Source: a bacterium (GTDB lineage Bacteria; RBG-13-66-14; B26-G2; WVWN01). Taken from it: a DNA stretch of 36,653 nucleotides. Position numbers and translations under genes: made by a program. Numbering within the stretch: the first letter of the stretch is position 1; every line of letters starts with the position of its first letter. Below the pieces are notes generated by a model. It was given only the letters and a program-made list of their open reading frames with translations, was not told the DNA's origin and did not search any database. The DNA is taken from assembly GCA_035529855.1 (NCBI GenBank), contig DATKVX010000047.1, forward strand, positions 1 through 36,653, read 5' to 3'. Shown here piece after piece: positions 7,432 through 35,360 of the stretch.

Positions 7432-8856
7432 CGGGCCGAACTCGCAAACTATCAACATCCGCGGTTCGGTATACCCCTCGATGGCGTAGCGCGGGCCCTC
7501 GCGGCCTATGCCCGACTCCTTGGCGCCGCCGTACGGCATGTGGTCCACGCGGAACGTCGGCACGTCGCCCGCGACTACCGCGCCCGCTCTTATATTCTCG
7601 TAGGCGTAGCGAACGCGCCCCAGGTCCCGCGTGAAAACGCCCGCCTGGAGGCCGTAGCGGGAGTCATCCGCCGCGGCAACGGCTTCGGCGAAATCGTCGT
7701 ACGGCTCGAGCAATACCACCGGCGCGAAAGCCTCCCGGCAGCTCAGCGGCAACTCCGCCGGGCACCCCTCCACCACCGCCGGCTCGAGGCGGGTTCCGTC
7801 GCGTTTGCCGCCGCACAGTACGCGCGCGCCGGCGGCCTTCGCCTCCTCGAGCCAACCCTCGACGCGCGCCGCGGCGTCCTCGTCTATCAAGCTGCCGAGG
7901 TCGGCGTCCTCGTCCAGGGGGTGGCCGACGCGCAAACGCCGCACCGCGTCCACCAAAGCGGCCGCGACGTCGTCGTAAACCGGCCGATGGATGTAAACGC
8001 GCTGGACCGAGATGCACGACTGCCCCGCGACGCCGAAGCCGCCCGCCACTACGCGCTTCACGGCGTACGCCAGGTCGGCGTCGGAATGTACAATGGCCGC
8101 GGCGTTGCCGCCCAGCTCGAGGCACACCTGCTTGCGGCCCGCCTTCCCCTTCAAACTCCAACCGACCTCCGGGGAGCCGGTGAAGGTCAACACCGCGAAC
8201 CGCTCGTCGGCGACCAGACCTTCCGCCCTCGAGCCGGGCATGGGGAGGACCGAGATTTGCCGCGCCGGCGCGCCGGCCTCGAGCGCCAGCGTCGCCAGCT
8301 CGAGCGCCGACAGCGGCGTCGCGGACGCGGGTTTGATGACTATGGGCGCGCCGCAAGCCATGGCCGGCGCCAGCTTATGGGCCACCAGGTTCAACGGGAA
8401 ATTGAACGGCGTTATCGCGAGCACCGGCCCCCGCACGAACCGCCGCACGATGCCGAAGCGGCCCCTACCCGCGGGATGCAGGTCCAACGGCACCACCTCG
8501 CCCTCCAGCCGGCTCACCTCCGCCGCCGCGACCTCGCACGTAAACGCGCACCGGCCTACCTCGCCCCGGGCCTCTCGAATATTCTTGCCGGCCTCGAGCG
8601 CGAGCGTCTTCGCCAAATCCTCCGCGTTCTCTTTCACCAGTCGCGACAGCTTGTTTAAAACGTCTACGCGCTCGTACGACGGGACACTTTCCCCCCCGCG
8701 GAAGAACTCGTACGCCGTCGTGGCCGCCTCCTCGACGTCCGCGGCGGTCGCGTTCCACGTCGCACCGACGACGTCGCCGTCGTACGGACACCGCACCGCG
8801 AGTTCCTCCTCCGAGCAGCGCCACTCACCCGCAACCAGGTATTCTTTACCGGCCAT
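7429..8856 (-). CDS. NAD(P)-dependent aldehyde dehydrogenase
   Basis: Oxidises an aldehyde to the acid with NAD(P). The 475 residues carry the ALDH fold hallmarks: TPFNFPLN with the oxyanion Asn152, cofactor lysine Lys175 in VIKPAS, FTGSPEVG (225-232), the general base Glu247 in LELGGN, and the nucleophile Cys281 in GQSCISVQRV. The N-terminus, PLDLHPAG and GIVRRFVRGPVLAITPFN pattern resemble lactaldehyde, glyceraldehyde or non-phosphorylating GAPDH-like members, but the substrate cannot be read off. The ATG at 8856 with GAGGTG six bases upstream is preferred over an in-frame GTG four codons earlier. The gene lies 19 bases downstream of the vWA gene on the same strand, so the two are probably co-transcribed. 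Confidence 0.92.
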   Translation of the reverse strand: MAGKEYLVAGEWRCSEEELAVRCPYDGDVVGATWNATAADVEEAATTAYEFFRGGESVPSYERVDVLNKLSRLVKENAEDLAKTLALEAGKNIREARGEVGRCAFTCEVAAAEVSRLEGEVVPLDLHPAGRGRFGIVRRFVRGPVLAITPFNFPLNLVAHKLAPAMACGAPIVIKPASATPLSALELATLALEAGAPARQISVLPMPGSRAEGLVADERFAVLTFTGSPEVGWSLKGKAGRKQVCLELGGNAAAIVHSDADLAYAVKRVVAGGFGVAGQSCISVQRVYIHRPVYDDVAAALVDAVRRLRVGHPLDEDADLGSLIDEDAAARVEGWLEEAKAAGARVLCGGKRDGTRLEPAVVEGCPAELPLSCREAFAPVVLLEPYDDFAEAVAAADDSRYGLQAGVFTRDLGRVRYAYENIRAGAVVAGDVPTFRVDHMPYGGAKESGIGREGPRYAIEGYTEPRMLIVCEFGP

Positions 8857-29668: not shown

Positions 29669-31483
29669 TCACGATTTGGAGCCCTTTTCCGCCGCCGGCG
29701 CGACGCCCGCCGGCGCGGCCATCGCCGCCGGGTCGACGATCACTTCGATTAACGACGGCCGGCTGTTCTCTTTAAGGGCTTTTTTTACCGCGGGCGCGAA
29801 GTCGTCGGGGTCGTCTACGCGCGCGCCGAAGCCGCCGGCCGAAGCGGCGAACGCGGCGAAGTCGGCGTTGGGGAACTCGACGCCGTACGGTGGGAAACCC
29901 GCGACGGCCTGCTCCTTCACGATGTTCTTCAAGCGACCGTCGTTGAAGAGCACTACCTTTATGGGCAGCTTCTCGCGGACGGCGGTGGTGAAGTCCGCCA
30001 TGAGCATGCCGAAGCCGCCGTCGCCGGTAACGCAGAACGTCGGCGTCGAGCGCTCGTGGAGCGAGGCCGCGAGCGCCGCCGGGAGGGCGAAGGCCATACT
30101 GGCCATGTTGGCGGAGAGGCACGTCCGCTGGCCGTCGGCGACGAACATCTTGTAAAACCAATAGGTGTGGTCGCCCACGTCGACGGTTACGACGGCGTCC
30201 TTGGGAATCAGCTCGTTCAACCAGCTCACGACGAAGCCGGGATGCACCGGCCTCGTCTTCTTGGCGCGCAGCGCGGCGACGTCGCGCATGTGCTCGTCGC
30301 GGTGCCGGCGGACGGTTTTTTTGTAATCCTCGTCCATATCCTTCGCCGGTACGAGCTCCAAGAGCCGCGGCAGCGCCTCGCGCACGTCGCCCACGGCGCC
30401 CGCCTCGACCTCGAAGGTTTTGCCGATGCGGGCGGCGTTCCAATCCACTTGCACGGCGGGCACGTCCGGGACGAGGTTGCGCTGCCGGAATCCCGAGCCG
30501 AGGATTACGAGGAGGTCCGACGCCTGCGCCGCCCGGGCCGCGCACGGCGCGCCGATGCTGCCCATCACGCCCACGGCCAGCTCGCGGGTTTCGGGCACGA
30601 CGCCCTTGGCGCGGGAGGTGGTGGCGACGAAGGCGCCGATGCGCTCGGCGAGGGCGATGACGTCGGCGCCGGAGAAGCGGGCTCCCCAGCCCGCGAAGAC
30701 CAGCGGCCTTTGGGCCCGGGCGATTACCTCCGCCACCGCCCGGAGCGACTCCTCCGTCGGCGCGGCGCGGCCGCGGAAGACGCGGCGGTCGCCGGTGAAT
30801 ATGCCGCCCGCCGCGGGCGCGGCCAGCACGTCGGTGGGGAGGCTCAGCGCCGCCACGCCGTGTTCGGCGTACGCTTTCTTTACGGCCATGCTAACGACAT
30901 TGGCCGCCCGCGCCGGCGCCGAGACCGTCTCCGCGTATACGGTGAACGGGTGGTAGAGCGCGAGCTGGTCGACTTCCTGAAAAGCTTCGCTGCCCAACCT
31001 AACCTCGGTCACCTGGCCCAACAGCGCGAGCACCGGCGAGCGGTCCGTCGCGGCGTCCATAAGGCCCGTTATCAAGTTGGTCGTCCCCGGGCCGGCGATG
31101 GAAAGGCATACCCCTATCTCGTTGAATATCTTAAAGCGGGCGGAGGCCATAAAGGCCGCCGTCTCCTCGTGGCGCACGAGTACGAAGTCCACGTCCTCCG
31201 AGCGGCGGATGGCGTCCACCAGCGGCAGGTTGGAGTCGCCCGGTATGCCGCAGACGTAGCGCACGCCGTACGCGGCGAGCTGCGCTACGATCTGGTCGGC
31301 GACCGTCCCCGCGAACTCGCCCTCGGCGACTTCGCGCTCCCCGGCTCCCTCGAGCCGATTGAAGGCGGACTTGGGGGCGCCGCACACCGGGCACGTCCAA
31401 TCGTCCGCCAACGCCGCGAAGGGGACCTCCTCGCGCGCCTCGTCGTAGATGTAACCGCAAACGCTGCACTTCCACTTGGCCAT
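29669..31483 (-). CDS. Rubredoxin domain fused to a pyruvate oxidase-type thiamine diphosphate enzyme
   Basis: A 604-residue fusion. Residues 1-42 form a compact rubredoxin: WKCSVCGYIYDE (Cys6, Cys9) and WTCPVCGAPK (Cys31, Cys34) bind one iron, with a shorter loop than free rubredoxins. From about 58 the protein is a POX/PoxB-like ThDP enzyme: the cofactor-activating Glu106 in RHEETAAFMA, GPGTTNLITGL (131-141), a central domain with GWGARFSGAD, and the ThDP motif from GDGGFGMLMADF (487-498) to Asn514. Such enzymes decarboxylate pyruvate or related 2-keto acids; a fused rubredoxin suggests electrons pass to an iron-sulfur or quinone partner. A strong GGAGGGG site fixes the start. Neighbouring cytochromes support an electron-transfer role. 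Acetolactate synthase-like activity is the main alternative. Confidence 0.88.
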   Translation of the reverse strand: MAKWKCSVCGYIYDEAREEVPFAALADDWTCPVCGAPKSAFNRLEGAGEREVAEGEFAGTVADQIVAQLAAYGVRYVCGIPGDSNLPLVDAIRRSEDVDFVLVRHEETAAFMASARFKIFNEIGVCLSIAGPGTTNLITGLMDAATDRSPVLALLGQVTEVRLGSEAFQEVDQLALYHPFTVYAETVSAPARAANVVSMAVKKAYAEHGVAALSLPTDVLAAPAAGGIFTGDRRVFRGRAAPTEESLRAVAEVIARAQRPLVFAGWGARFSGADVIALAERIGAFVATTSRAKGVVPETRELAVGVMGSIGAPCAARAAQASDLLVILGSGFRQRNLVPDVPAVQVDWNAARIGKTFEVEAGAVGDVREALPRLLELVPAKDMDEDYKKTVRRHRDEHMRDVAALRAKKTRPVHPGFVVSWLNELIPKDAVVTVDVGDHTYWFYKMFVADGQRTCLSANMASMAFALPAALAASLHERSTPTFCVTGDGGFGMLMADFTTAVREKLPIKVVLFNDGRLKNIVKEQAVAGFPPYGVEFPNADFAAFAASAGGFGARVDDPDDFAPAVKKALKENSRPSLIEVIVDPAAMAAPAGVAPAAEKGSKS

Positions 31484-31667
31484 AACCCCTCCGGATCTGA
31501 AACGCGCAATACTTTAACTAACGGCCCGGGAAGGAACCGCCGCCTATATCGGACCGGGCTTTACCGGCATCCCCGTCGGCGAGCGCTTCGTACTCGTAGA
31601 CGATGGGCGTCAATTAACGCCGGCCCCTTCCCATCAGCACGACGCCGTTTACGCTAAGCCGGCGACC

Positions 31668-32387
31668 TTAGCGTCCCGGGCCGTAATCGTTAACGAGGTA
31701 AAGTTCGATTTCCTCGGCGTCGACGTCGCTTATCCAACTCCGGTCGTAGCTCCGCATCCGCTCGAGCAACGGCGGCCAGTCCGCCTCGGTCCGGGGCTTG
31801 GCCAAGGGACGCCGGAGATGGTGGCATTTACCACACTTCTCGGCGAAGACGAAGCGAGCGGCGTGAAGGCGGTCGGCCTCCCCCACGGCGGGGCGCATGA
31901 GCTCCATCATCTCTTCGTGCCGCTCGACCATTTCCTCGCCCGGTATAACCTCGACTACGGGCGGCCCCGCCGGTTCCCCGGCGCCGAGGCGGGCCAAGAG
32001 CTTCGTCGTGGCGCCCAACATTATTACGACGAACGCCAGCCCGAAAACGGTCATCCCCAACGGCGGCGCGAACTTCATCAGGCCGCGGTAAGGCCGGACG
32101 ACGGCCCATTTGAGGAACAGAAACGCCACGACGGCGAAACCCGCGGCGCCGTGCCAGGCGACCCTCGCCGAGAGCACGTTGCCGTACGCCGTTATCTTGT
32201 ACAACATCCCGGCGAATAGGAAAATCATTATCGCAAGGAAGACGTACCCGGCGACGCGGTGGACCCATAGCAGCGCGGCCCCGCCCTTCCCGGCGGCGGC
32301 CCCGCTCAACCGGGCGAGCATGGCCAAGACGGCCGTCAACGCCGCGGCCAAGGCGACGTACGCTAAAACGATCGATATTAATACCAT
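31668..32387 (-). CDS. Membrane b-type cytochrome with C-terminal c-type heme domain
   Basis: A 239-residue inner-membrane protein. Four hydrophobic helices (about 1-25, 44-62, 79-96, 109-130) contain histidines that could ligate heme b (His43 in WVHRVAGY, His79 in AWHGAAGF). After an acidic linker a single c-type site CGKCH (Cys185, Cys188, His189) lies in a short cytochrome-c-like tail, with ADWPPLLERMRSY and a final EIELYLVNDYG. The helical part resembles DUF420/DUF4405-like proteins. The ATG at 32387 with GAGAGG six bases upstream is preferred over a TTG six bases earlier. It is divergent from the lipoprotein cytochrome c. Its partner may be the rubredoxin-fused enzyme, but that is inferred from proximity. 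Confidence 0.82.
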   Translation of the reverse strand: MVLISIVLAYVALAAALTAVLAMLARLSGAAAGKGGAALLWVHRVAGYVFLAIMIFLFAGMLYKITAYGNVLSARVAWHGAAGFAVVAFLFLKWAVVRPYRGLMKFAPPLGMTVFGLAFVVIMLGATTKLLARLGAGEPAGPPVVEVIPGEEMVERHEEMMELMRPAVGEADRLHAARFVFAEKCGKCHHLRRPLAKPRTEADWPPLLERMRSYDRSWISDVDAEEIELYLVNDYGPGR

Positions 32388-32585
32388 TATCAACCTCTCG
32401 CCGAAAAGCCGGCGTAGACCGTCCCAAGGGACCAGCGCCTACCGGCCGGCGCCAAACGTTACTTTCCGCAGTTCTATCACTTGCGTTCAATTTTAGCTTG
32501 CTTTTTTATACTATATATATTAAATTGTTTGCAAGATAATATTTACACGTTTTCGTTCATAAGTCCATAACCAAGGAGGACGGCA
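32388..32585. promoter_or_regulatory. AT-rich divergent control region between the cytochrome genes
   Basis: The 198-base gap is far more AT rich (32475-32550) than the surrounding DNA. It contains TATACT (32507-32512), GATAAT (32535-32540) and an inverted repeat CTTGC (32497-32501) / GCAAG (32531-32535) that could bind a regulator. No complete -35/-10 pair was convincing. The cytochrome c gene has AAGGAGG at 32573-32579. Confidence 0.4.
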
Positions 32586-33020
32586 ATGCGGAAATTTCTA
32601 GTCTGTTTGGGGGTAGTTGCCGCCGTCGCGGCGCTATTCGTCGCGTGCAAGAAGAAAGAGGAAGCGCCGACCGCGGAAACCGCCATGACCGCCGAGACGG
32701 CCGAAGTCGCCATGGCGGGCGACGTCGAGCGCGGCAAAGCGTTATTCGCCGACGTCAACCTCGGCACCACCGGCAAAAGCTGCGAGTCGTGCCACCCCAA
32801 CGGCGGCACCGAGGGCATGGAGATGGAGGGGATGACGACCAAGCCGCTCACCGGCGTCAAGGACCGCTACCCCGGCGTCTTCACGATGATGGACCCCGAA
32901 AAAGAGGTCGCGCTGGCCGAAGTCGTAAACTTCTGCATCACAAACCCGTTGGGCGGCGAAGCCCTGGCCGAGGACGGCCAGGAGATGAAGGACTTCCTCG
33001 CGTACCTGGAGTCGCTGTAA
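32586..33020 (+). CDS. Lipoprotein cytochrome c (single heme)
   Basis: A 144-residue periplasmic electron carrier. A lipoprotein signal ends at LFVAC (Cys21), followed by a Lys/Glu/Ala/Thr-rich spacer and a small class I-like cytochrome with CESCH (Cys66, Cys69, His70) and a likely distal Met among the Met-rich GTEGMEMEGM or TMMDPEKE segments. The C-terminal helix (GQEMKDFLAYLESL) is typical. It has an AAGGAGG site six bases upstream. It is divergently transcribed from the membrane b/c cytochrome, sharing an AT-rich control region, so the two are likely co-regulated and may be redox partners. A weak terminator follows. Confidence 0.9.
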   Translation: MRKFLVCLGVVAAVAALFVACKKKEEAPTAETAMTAETAEVAMAGDVERGKALFADVNLGTTGKSCESCHPNGGTEGMEMEGMTTKPLTGVKDRYPGVFTMMDPEKEVALAEVVNFCITNPLGGEALAEDGQEMKDFLAYLESL

Positions 33021-33182: not shown

Positions 33183-35360
33183 ATGGCCTCTTATTCGCTA
33201 TTCGAAAAAATCGCTCTTTGGACGGTCTTTGGCAGTGCCTTCGTCGGCATAGGCTACGCCCTCATACTCGTCGGCAGGATTCTCAAGCTCGACCCCGGCA
33301 CGCCGGCGATGCAGAAGATAGCGCGCGCGATCCAACAAGGCGCCCGGGCGTACCTCAATCGGCAATTTAAAACCATCCTGCTAATAACCGGCGTCATCGC
33401 CGCCGCGATGTTCTTCACGGGCGAGACGCTGACGATGCAGTTCGGCCGCGCGGGCGCGTTCCTGCTGGGCGCGTTCTTCTCGGGGCTCGTGGGCTTCGTG
33501 GGGATGAGCCTGGCGGTGCGGGGCAACGTCCGCTGCGCCAACGCCGCGCGCACCTCCTACAAGCGCGCGCTCACCATCGCCTTTCAAACCGGCACCATCG
33601 CCGGGATGTTCTGCGTGGGCCTGGGCCTCCTCGGCGCCACCTCCATCTTCATCCTCTACGGTTCGAAGGCGTACGAGGTGCTTATCGGCTTCGGCTTCGG
33701 CGGCTCCTTGTTGGCGCTGTTCATGCGGGTAGGGGGCGGCATATACACCAAGGCCGCGGACATCGGCGCCGACCTCGTCGGCAAGGTCGAGGCCGGCATC
33801 CCGGAGGACGACCCCCGCAACGCCGCCGTTATTGCCGACAACGTGGGGGACAACGTCGGCGACTGCGCCGGCATGGCGGCGGACATCTTCGAGTCGTACG
33901 AGGTCACGTTGGTCGCGGCGATGATACTCGGCTGGACCGTAATGGGCGTCAAGGGCGTCATCTTCCCGCTCATCGTGCGCGGCGTCGGCGTCATCACGTC
34001 CATCATCGGGACCGCCGCCGTCCGGCCCCTCTCCGAGACCGAACCGGGGATGCGGCCCATAAACCGGGGCTACATCATCTCCGCTATAACGTCAGCTTTG
34101 GGGTTTTACTTCTTCGCCTATTATTACGTGGGCGACCTGCGCGTCTTCTGGGCTACCGTCTTCGGCCTGATACTCTCCGTGTTTATCTCGTTGTTGACCG
34201 AACACTTCACGTCCATCAAACGCGGCCCGGTCAAGGAGATCGCCGCGGCGACGCGCACCGGCGAGGCCACGACCATCCTGATGGGCGTGGCCGTAGGGCT
34301 CGAGTCGTCGGTGTGGGCCATCCTCGTTATCTGCGGCGCCATCTTCTCCTCCATCCTCATCGTGGGCGACCCGAGCAACGTCACGTACATCCTCTACTCC
34401 ATCTCGCTCGCCGGTATGGGCATGCTCACCACGACGGGGGTCGTCGTCTCGATGGATACCTTCGGGCCGGTGGCCGACAACGCCAACGGCATCATAGAGA
34501 TGTCGAAGGAGGGCGACGAGAAGACGCGCAAGACCATCGCAGACCTCGACGCCGTCGGCAACACGACGAAGGCCATCACGAAAGGCTTCGCCATCGCGAC
34601 CGCGGTCATGGCCGCGACGTCGCTCTTCGGCGCGTACTTCCAGGAGTTGCGAAAAGCGGGCGCCGCGATTACCACCATCGACGTCGCCAACCCCGTCGTC
34701 CTCATCGGCCTGCTCGTCGGCGGCGCCGTACCCTTCCTCTTCTCCTCGTTGCTGATACGGGCCGTGGGCCGCGCGGCCGCCCTCGTCATAAACGAGGTCC
34801 GGCGCCAGTTCCACACGATCAAAGGCTTGATGGCGGGCGAGGCCGAGCCGGAGTACACGAGGGCGGTGGACATCTGCACCCGGGCCGCCCTTAAGGAGCT
34901 CGTCGGCCCGGGCCTCTTGGCGGTGTTGACGCCGATAATCGTCGGCTTCCTCCTCGACGCCGCGGCGCTGGGCGGCTTCCTGGCCGGCATCATCCTGACG
35001 GGCCAGCTTATGGCGGTCTTCCTGGCGAACTCCGGCGGCGCCTGGGACAACGCCAAGAAGTCCATCGAGGACGGCCTTTACGGCGGCAAGGGTTCCCCGG
35101 CGCACAAGGCCGCCGTCGTCGGCGACACCGTCGGTGACCCCTTCAAGGATACCGCCGGGCCGGCCATCAACCCCCTCATCAAGGTGATGAACCTGGTGGC
35201 GCTCATCGTCGCGCCGCTCATCATCAAGTACCGCGGGACGTGGTACATCACGGTCCCCGTCGTCGTCGTCGGTCTGGTCATCGTCGGCTGGGCCATCTGG
35301 CGCACGAAGAAGGGCTCCTTCGCGGCGGTGGGCGAGGCCGAGGAAGCGGTGGAGAAGTAA
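33183..35360 (+). CDS. hppA: Membrane-bound proton-translocating pyrophosphatase
   Basis: An integral membrane pump that hydrolyses pyrophosphate and exports protons. The 725 residues (about 16 helices) carry GGGIYTKAADIGADLVGKVE (184-203), the active-site EDDPRNAAVIADNVGDNVGD (208-227) and DTVGDPFKDTAGPA near the C-terminus, with further acidic metal ligands. At the subfamily-diagnostic position the sequence reads GNTTKAITKG, so Lys463 and Thr466 occupy the sites that are Ala and Gly/Ala in K+-dependent enzymes; this predicts a K+-independent, hence H+-pumping type. The family is used for energy saving where PPi is abundant. Its strong own promoter suggests high expression; downstream hairpins end the unit. 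Confidence 0.95.
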   Translation: MASYSLFEKIALWTVFGSAFVGIGYALILVGRILKLDPGTPAMQKIARAIQQGARAYLNRQFKTILLITGVIAAAMFFTGETLTMQFGRAGAFLLGAFFSGLVGFVGMSLAVRGNVRCANAARTSYKRALTIAFQTGTIAGMFCVGLGLLGATSIFILYGSKAYEVLIGFGFGGSLLALFMRVGGGIYTKAADIGADLVGKVEAGIPEDDPRNAAVIADNVGDNVGDCAGMAADIFESYEVTLVAAMILGWTVMGVKGVIFPLIVRGVGVITSIIGTAAVRPLSETEPGMRPINRGYIISAITSALGFYFFAYYYVGDLRVFWATVFGLILSVFISLLTEHFTSIKRGPVKEIAAATRTGEATTILMGVAVGLESSVWAILVICGAIFSSILIVGDPSNVTYILYSISLAGMGMLTTTGVVVSMDTFGPVADNANGIIEMSKEGDEKTRKTIADLDAVGNTTKAITKGFAIATAVMAATSLFGAYFQELRKAGAAITTIDVANPVVLIGLLVGGAVPFLFSSLLIRAVGRAAALVINEVRRQFHTIKGLMAGEAEPEYTRAVDICTRAALKELVGPGLLAVLTPIIVGFLLDAAALGGFLAGIILTGQLMAVFLANSGGAWDNAKKSIEDGLYGGKGSPAHKAAVVGDTVGDPFKDTAGPAINPLIKVMNLVALIVAPLIIKYRGTWYITVPVVVVGLVIVGWAIWRTKKGSFAAVGEAEEAVEK

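Follow-up and report, generated by a model that had tools for sequence, protein, structure and literature searches.

The window analysed here, a stretch of 36,653 nucleotides of bacterial DNA, carries on its minus strand a single open reading frame of 604 amino acids (29669-31483) in which a rubredoxin is joined to a pyruvate oxidase-type ThDP enzyme, and this fusion belongs to an old and widespread family. We read the protein, with a probability of roughly 0.6, as a soluble pyruvate-oxidase-type 2-oxoacid oxidase with a built-in one-electron exit through rubredoxin, the acceptors of which would be lineage-specific. The gene and its parts are as follows:

29669..31483, minus strand: rubredoxin-pyruvate oxidase-type fusion, 604 aa (ORF list, Pfam, homologues, tree, structure comparison)
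31361..31477, minus strand: rubredoxin domain, residues 3-41, with predicted Fe ligands C6, C9, C31 and C34 and a short loop (Pfam, alignment, PDB matches)
31307..31360, minus strand: linker, about residues 42-59, presumably flexible (low model confidence)
30956..31306, minus strand: TPP_enzyme_N, residues 60-176, with catalytic Glu106 (Glu50 of E. coli PoxB) (Pfam, alignment)
30362..30742, minus strand: TPP_enzyme_M, the FAD-type domain, residues 248-374, with R291/K293 common to PoxB (Pfam, alignment)
29741..30181, minus strand: TPP_enzyme_C, residues 435-581, with the GDGG...N ThDP motif, K519-N520 replacing PoxB G464-F465, and Glu524 corresponding to PoxB Glu469 (Pfam, alignment)

A preliminary description had recognised a four-cysteine rubredoxin and a full ThDP enzyme in one chain, and the Pfam matches (residues 3-41, then 60-581) bear this out. 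The Rubredoxin model reaches 36.8 bits (cut-off 23) over a CxxC...CPxC ligand pattern, and the three TPP_enzyme domains follow in the order N, M, C, each far above its cut-off. Searched alone, the first 57 amino acids match solved rubredoxins at E 2e-14, the short-loop 6nw0 and 6rxn being among them, and all four cysteines are kept in every aligned fusion N-terminus except one that is truncated at a contig end. The predicted model of the fusion has a mean pLDDT of 90 and a pTM of 0.87, with values below 50 at linker residues 46-51 and 58 for the block 41-50; the structural aligner barely covered the rubredoxin part of this model, the identity of which rests on the sequence match.

The search for this architecture proposed in the same description was productive, since one scan of genome contigs fetched 80 loci, 61 of which belong to the fusion family, and the N-terminal rubredoxin is seen in all but a few of these, the exceptions being truncated at contig ends. 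The bacterial records are labelled Coatesbacteria, Eisenbacteria, WOR-3/Stahlbacteria and 'Actinomycetes' MAGs, and the archaeal ones Methanococcoides, Methanohalophilus, ANME-2, Methanomicrobia, Thermoplasmata, Bathyarchaeota, Nitrososphaeria and Asgard archaea. Most of the fusion loci come from MAGs and some of the taxon names are questionable: L005 goes under Zixiibacteriota, yet its FrdA is the same as in genome G001, which belongs to the window's genus. An artefact of chance, frame or assembly was rejected given the same fused frame in these 61 loci and a dN/dS of 0.13 between the window's gene and that of its 92%-identical relative L005 (0.07 in the rubredoxin part), by which the window's gene is under purifying selection. 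Cultured methanogens, namely Methanococcoides and Methanohalophilus, carry the fusion too, which places its reality beyond doubt. In Methanohalophilus sp. RSK (L025:7158) the frame ends at residue 385 and homology runs on, indicating either a broken gene or a sequencing error. No plasmid-borne copy of the fusion was found.

In a tree built on the ThDP part, with the rubredoxin left out, the fused enzymes form a major clade (45 rows, SH-aLRT 100) and a second clade (13 rows) that join in one branch (SH-aLRT 94), separate from the unfused enzymes, those of PoxB type included. A single further row falls within this branch, a long-branched ThDP oxidase of genome G019 that has an N-terminal Rieske [2Fe-2S] domain where the others have rubredoxin (L086 / L120 / L140, G019:C179); further Rieske-POX fusions were sought at E 1e-60 in 145 genomes around G019 and none was found. 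Since two unrelated one-electron iron domains share the same end of related oxidases, the N-terminal domain would be the electron exit, and this swap, otherwise hard to explain, is the strongest argument that the sequences offer for such a role.

The core of the fusion is closest to the pyruvate oxidases. Its best PDB sequence matches are C. glutamicum PQO and E. coli PoxB, which are also the best Foldseek matches of the predicted model, and a second structural aligner ranks PoxB first (Z 44.9), in effect a tie, since other pyruvate oxidases and ThDP synthases score within 1 of it. Pyruvate oxidase models are the top-scoring ones in NCBIfam but remain under their curated cut-offs (best 414.9 bits versus 742), and the fusion is therefore a relative of the named pyruvate oxidase subfamilies rather than a standard member. 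The FAD- and ThDP-binding residues had been set beforehand as a test, and in an alignment with E. coli PoxB, IlvI, IlvB, Gcl and Oxc PoxB-like motifs are present for both cofactors: the catalytic E106, G487-D488-G489-G490 and N514 for ThDP, and, for predicted FAD binding, G265xG267, R291/K293, G305/G308/G311 and D347, all common to the fusion and PoxB. Furthermore, E524 aligns with PoxB Glu469, of which we take Glu483 of LpPOX to be the counterpart, at a position where AHAS has W or Q. An acetohydroxyacid/acetolactate synthase was rejected, the fusion having neither W or Q at Glu524 nor M at the R291 position as seen in IlvI and IlvB. Every fusion protein also ends short of the C-terminal membrane and lipid-activation segment that PoxB, a quinone user, possesses, which suggests a soluble enzyme that is not adapted to quinone; the missing helix agrees with the earlier suggestion of an acceptor other than quinone.

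A zinc site with a structural or regulatory function, attached to an ordinary acetolactate synthase or decarboxylase, is a very unlikely reading of the rubredoxin-like domain. Four-cysteine rubredoxin-like sites bind zinc in some other proteins and the fold is common to acetolactate synthases, but the match here is to true rubredoxins, with ligands and core conserved in both clades, a Rieske domain holds the same position in one relative, and at Glu524 and R291/K293 the enzyme follows the pyruvate oxidases and not the synthases.

The substrate is a subtler matter. At the position of PoxB Phe465 (Phe479 in LpPOX) the fusion has Asn520 in place of Phe, and C. glutamicum PQO has Met there, so that Phe is not an absolute marker of pyruvate oxidases. 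The pair K519-N520 (PoxB G464-F465) is invariant in the major clade, whereas most of the second clade carries G-M there, the pair seen in C. glutamicum PQO, and the two clades may differ in substrate for this reason; K519-N520 throughout the window's clade may point to a substrate other than pyruvate. With the same electron logic, 2-oxoglutarate or another dicarboxylic 2-oxoacid might be converted directly to succinate, in a TCA-cycle bypass beside SdhAB, fumarase and citrate synthase. The replaced pair lies in the active-site region, the window's clade has R269 and R333 without exception, and citrate synthase, fumarase and SdhAB surround the fusion in a Lokiarchaeal cluster; we nevertheless hold this substrate to be improbable, as the nearest models and structures are pyruvate oxidases and the second clade keeps G-M and adjoins malic enzyme, the product of which is pyruvate.

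The neighbours suggest where electrons could go from a rubredoxin-linked pyruvate oxidase. A neighbour table was made by tblastn over all 80 loci, with 20 unfused loci as controls. Of the 61 fusion loci, 11 have FrdA and/or FrdB no more than 850 bp from the fusion, versus none of the 20 controls; these 11 are from Coatesbacteria (L004, L005), Eisenbacteria-type genomes (L028, L030, L033, L038, L044, L045), a Lokiarchaeal genome (L037) and Methanomicrobia (L058, L059). No SdhC/D anchor was found inside the SdhA/FrdA-SdhB/FrdB clusters beside the fusion, and in L044, L045, L058 and L059 the cluster genes are set end to end, so that an anchor gene would not fit. Sdh_cyt anchors, searched with PF01127 only, were absent from five of the seven cluster-bearing genomes and from G000-G003; the genomes of L044 and L045 have them elsewhere than in the cluster, and in a fusion-less relative (G005) two of them adjoin FrdA. 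An anchorless FrdAB requires a soluble donor or acceptor, for which the rubredoxin of the same cluster is the obvious candidate.

The frdAB clusters often also hold class II fumarase, malic enzyme (L058, L059) or an FMN-dependent dehydrogenase. In L045 (8136-9311) and L044 (from 7988) the latter is lactate dehydrogenase-like and has an N-terminal rubredoxin-like domain of its own, in a cluster that also holds fumarase, frdAB and the fusion; near 8545 the L044 copy changes its reading frame. We tentatively propose, as a serious possibility but one that falls somewhat short of even odds, a membrane-free electron system from pyruvate (or from lactate or malate via pyruvate) to fumarate, in which the rubredoxin-fused pyruvate oxidase, together with the rubredoxin-fused hydroxyacid dehydrogenase where present, would reduce the anchorless FrdAB via rubredoxin. 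The FrdA of L005 scores over the cut-off of a succinate dehydrogenase model, and the frdAB reaction could run in the opposite direction.

In the window itself this linkage is broken. The surroundings of the gene are:

31484..31667: intergenic stretch, where frdA and frdB lie in L005 and L004 (comparison with relatives)
31668..32393, minus strand: membrane cytochrome with a hydrophobic N-terminal part, invariant H45 and H81 (possible b-haem ligands) and a C-terminal CxxCH (alignment, linkage)
32586..33020, plus strand: divergent SoxA/TsdA-like c-type cytochrome, accessory at most (ORF list, Pfam)

The relatives L005 and L004 present the order b/c cytochrome, (small ORF in L005), frdA, frdB and fusion, with frdB running 8 bp into the start of the fusion, and the window has some 190 bp of unrelated DNA instead of the 2.9 kb with frdAB. 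No FrdB was found in the window's genome (97% complete), and the frdAB candidates elsewhere in it, a 42% FrdA-like match and a weaker one, were set aside as probably other flavoproteins such as L-aspartate oxidase. The window's species has thus lost frdAB at the fusion locus, and in G003, of the same genus, both the fusion and frdAB are missing from the site, which is therefore a variable cassette. A multicopper-oxidase-like gene, named from its sequence and including a run of N, replaces the fusion there (L144:4938-7324, G003:C59). Because the window's genome is devoid of frdAB, fumarate reduction is not the general role of the fusion, which, being under purifying selection, must work without frdAB in this species.

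The window's genome encodes several rubrerythrins along with flavodiiron-type proteins, a fusion of flavin reductase with rubredoxin, a lone rubredoxin and five POR-family matches, and for these reasons an oxygen-defence or cytochrome-linked role of the fusion is likely in this species. The flavin reductase carries its rubredoxin at the C-terminus and is followed by the lone rubredoxin gene (G000:C81, L002:1365-2268, G000 being the window's genome). For the family as a whole, the fused rubredoxin may relay pyruvate electrons to rubrerythrin, superoxide reductase or flavodiiron proteins, the frdAB linkage being a lineage-specific add-on; this is possible, although on balance unlikely. At the archaeal locus L032, desulfoferrodoxin (superoxide reductase) and rubrerythrin adjoin the fusion, the window's genome lacks frdB, its five POR-family matches leave a pyruvate oxidase unneeded for energy, and aerotolerant Methanococcoides exist (PMC12422968). 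On the other hand, such neighbours occur at one fusion locus only, and the defence genes of the window's genus sit on other contigs and are also found in the fusion-less G003.

The next genes had been described as encoding two cytochromes, and both are confirmed. The b/c cytochrome lies directly upstream of the fusion on the same strand and is linked to it in Coatesbacteria and Eisenbacteria; the other has no such linkage in another phylum. An H+-translocating pyrophosphatase (33183-35360, plus strand) adjoins the cytochromes and is syntenic in the genus. A route from the fusion to the membrane b/c cytochrome and on to the divergent cytochrome c, for respiration or an external acceptor, would fit this linkage, its persistence in the window after the loss of frdAB and the two invariant His of the hydrophobic part together with CxxCH. 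We judge this route rather unlikely, for the b/c cytochrome stands at the same site in G003 without the fusion and is missing from most fusion loci.

Elsewhere the company of the fusion is more varied. A glutamate-synthase-like FMN protein with an N-terminal rubredoxin adjoins it in L014, L017, L019, L039 and L042, and a small cysteine-rich DUF2769 gene lies upstream, mostly directly adjacent, in L019, L023, L035, L039, L040, L042, L043 and L046. In L018, L020, L014, L017 and other Methanococcoides loci the neighbour is a CDGSH and divergent 4Fe-4S protein, and in Methanococcoides a DUF427 gene is found on the other side of the fusion. Some fusion loci have an adjoining thioredoxin reductase gene. 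We infer a rubredoxin-reducing pyruvate oxidase whose partner would vary by lineage, and the likelihoods of the alternatives overlap, as several partners could hold in different lineages.

The substrate, electron path and partners that we propose for such an enzyme are the following. ThDP would decarboxylate a 2-oxoacid, most likely pyruvate, and the enamine would reduce the enzyme's own FAD; FADH2 would then pass single electrons to the iron of the N-terminal rubredoxin, which on its flexible linker would replace the quinone of PoxB. Reduced rubredoxin would deliver them to rubredoxin-accepting partners. In Coatesbacteria, Eisenbacteria, Lokiarchaea and Methanomicrobia the partner would be an anchorless FrdA/FrdB that turns fumarate into succinate, in other lineages the rubredoxin-fused glutamate-synthase-like flavoprotein, in one archaeon superoxide reductase/rubrerythrin and, in the window's species, probably either the oxygen-defence set of rubrerythrin and flavodiiron proteins or the b/c cytochrome next door. 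Points against this scheme include the following: the four-cysteine site may hold iron or zinc, between which sequence does not discriminate, and the low confidence of the linker places the iron-FAD geometry outside the reach of the model. POX active sites are located at subunit interfaces.

The oxidation of pyruvate to acetate and CO2 has a potential near -0.7 V, rubredoxins lie at about -60 to +30 mV and fumarate/succinate near +30 mV. Electrons can thus flow downhill to rubredoxin and then to fumarate, peroxide or cytochromes, and rubredoxin cannot readily serve a ferredoxin-level partner. The preliminary description had rubredoxin feeding a low-potential or oxygen-protective partner; the second option is plausible in view of the neighbours in L032, but the first falls with a rubredoxin near 0 mV.

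That no characterised example was known agrees with our search of the full-text literature, which covered few subscription papers, found no description of a rubredoxin-ThDP fusion and is no proof of novelty. Domain databases probably list the architecture already, and the apparent novelty lies in the spread of the family, its linkage to anchorless FrdAB, the exchange of rubredoxin for Rieske and the window's loss of frdAB. A new electron route from a pyruvate oxidase kind of enzyme is plausible but unproven. If true, the acceptors of pyruvate oxidases would not be limited to quinone or oxygen, a widespread branch in anaerobes reducing rubredoxin instead. The physiological donors of rubredoxin are poorly known, and the fusion is a concrete candidate fed straight from central metabolism. 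The anchorless FrdAB neighbours make the soluble fumarate reduction route directly testable, and the cultured methanogens carry the fusion without a known partner. Together with the rubredoxin-fused glutamate-synthase-like and Rieske-fused forms, the family would suggest an economy of central-carbon flavoenzymes that bear their own one-electron iron carrier.

Among known systems, PoxB and PQO (E. coli 3ey9, 3eya; C. glutamicum 9ev3-9ev6) share with the fusion core 31-32% identity over its whole length, the three ThDP-enzyme domains with an FAD-type middle domain, the catalytic Glu, the ThDP motif and the Glu469 equivalent, whereas the fusion differs by its N-terminal rubredoxin, the lack of a C-terminal membrane segment, K-N for G464-F465 and its sub-cut-off NCBIfam scores. 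The phosphate- and oxygen-using POX of L. plantarum and A. viridans are similar in fold (Z about 44) and type of chemistry, but at 25-26% identity they pass electrons to O2 and lack an iron protein. Standalone rubredoxins (1yk5, 1bq8; short-loop 6nw0, 6rxn) have the same CxxC...CPxC fold and core (E 2e-14 to 4e-12), whereas here the domain is N-terminal to an oxidase and its loop is, in the major clade, about 8 residues shorter than usual. The flavin reductase-rubredoxin fusions of the high-molecular-weight rubredoxin type similarly combine a flavoenzyme with a fused rubredoxin as electron exit, but are flavin reductases with a C-terminal rubredoxin and not ThDP enzymes. Finally, TfrAB, the soluble CoM/CoB fumarate reductase of methanogens, is likewise an anchorless FrdA/FrdB pair with a soluble donor; scores with the TfrA model stay under its cut-off, however, and the donor proposed here is rubredoxin instead of thiols.
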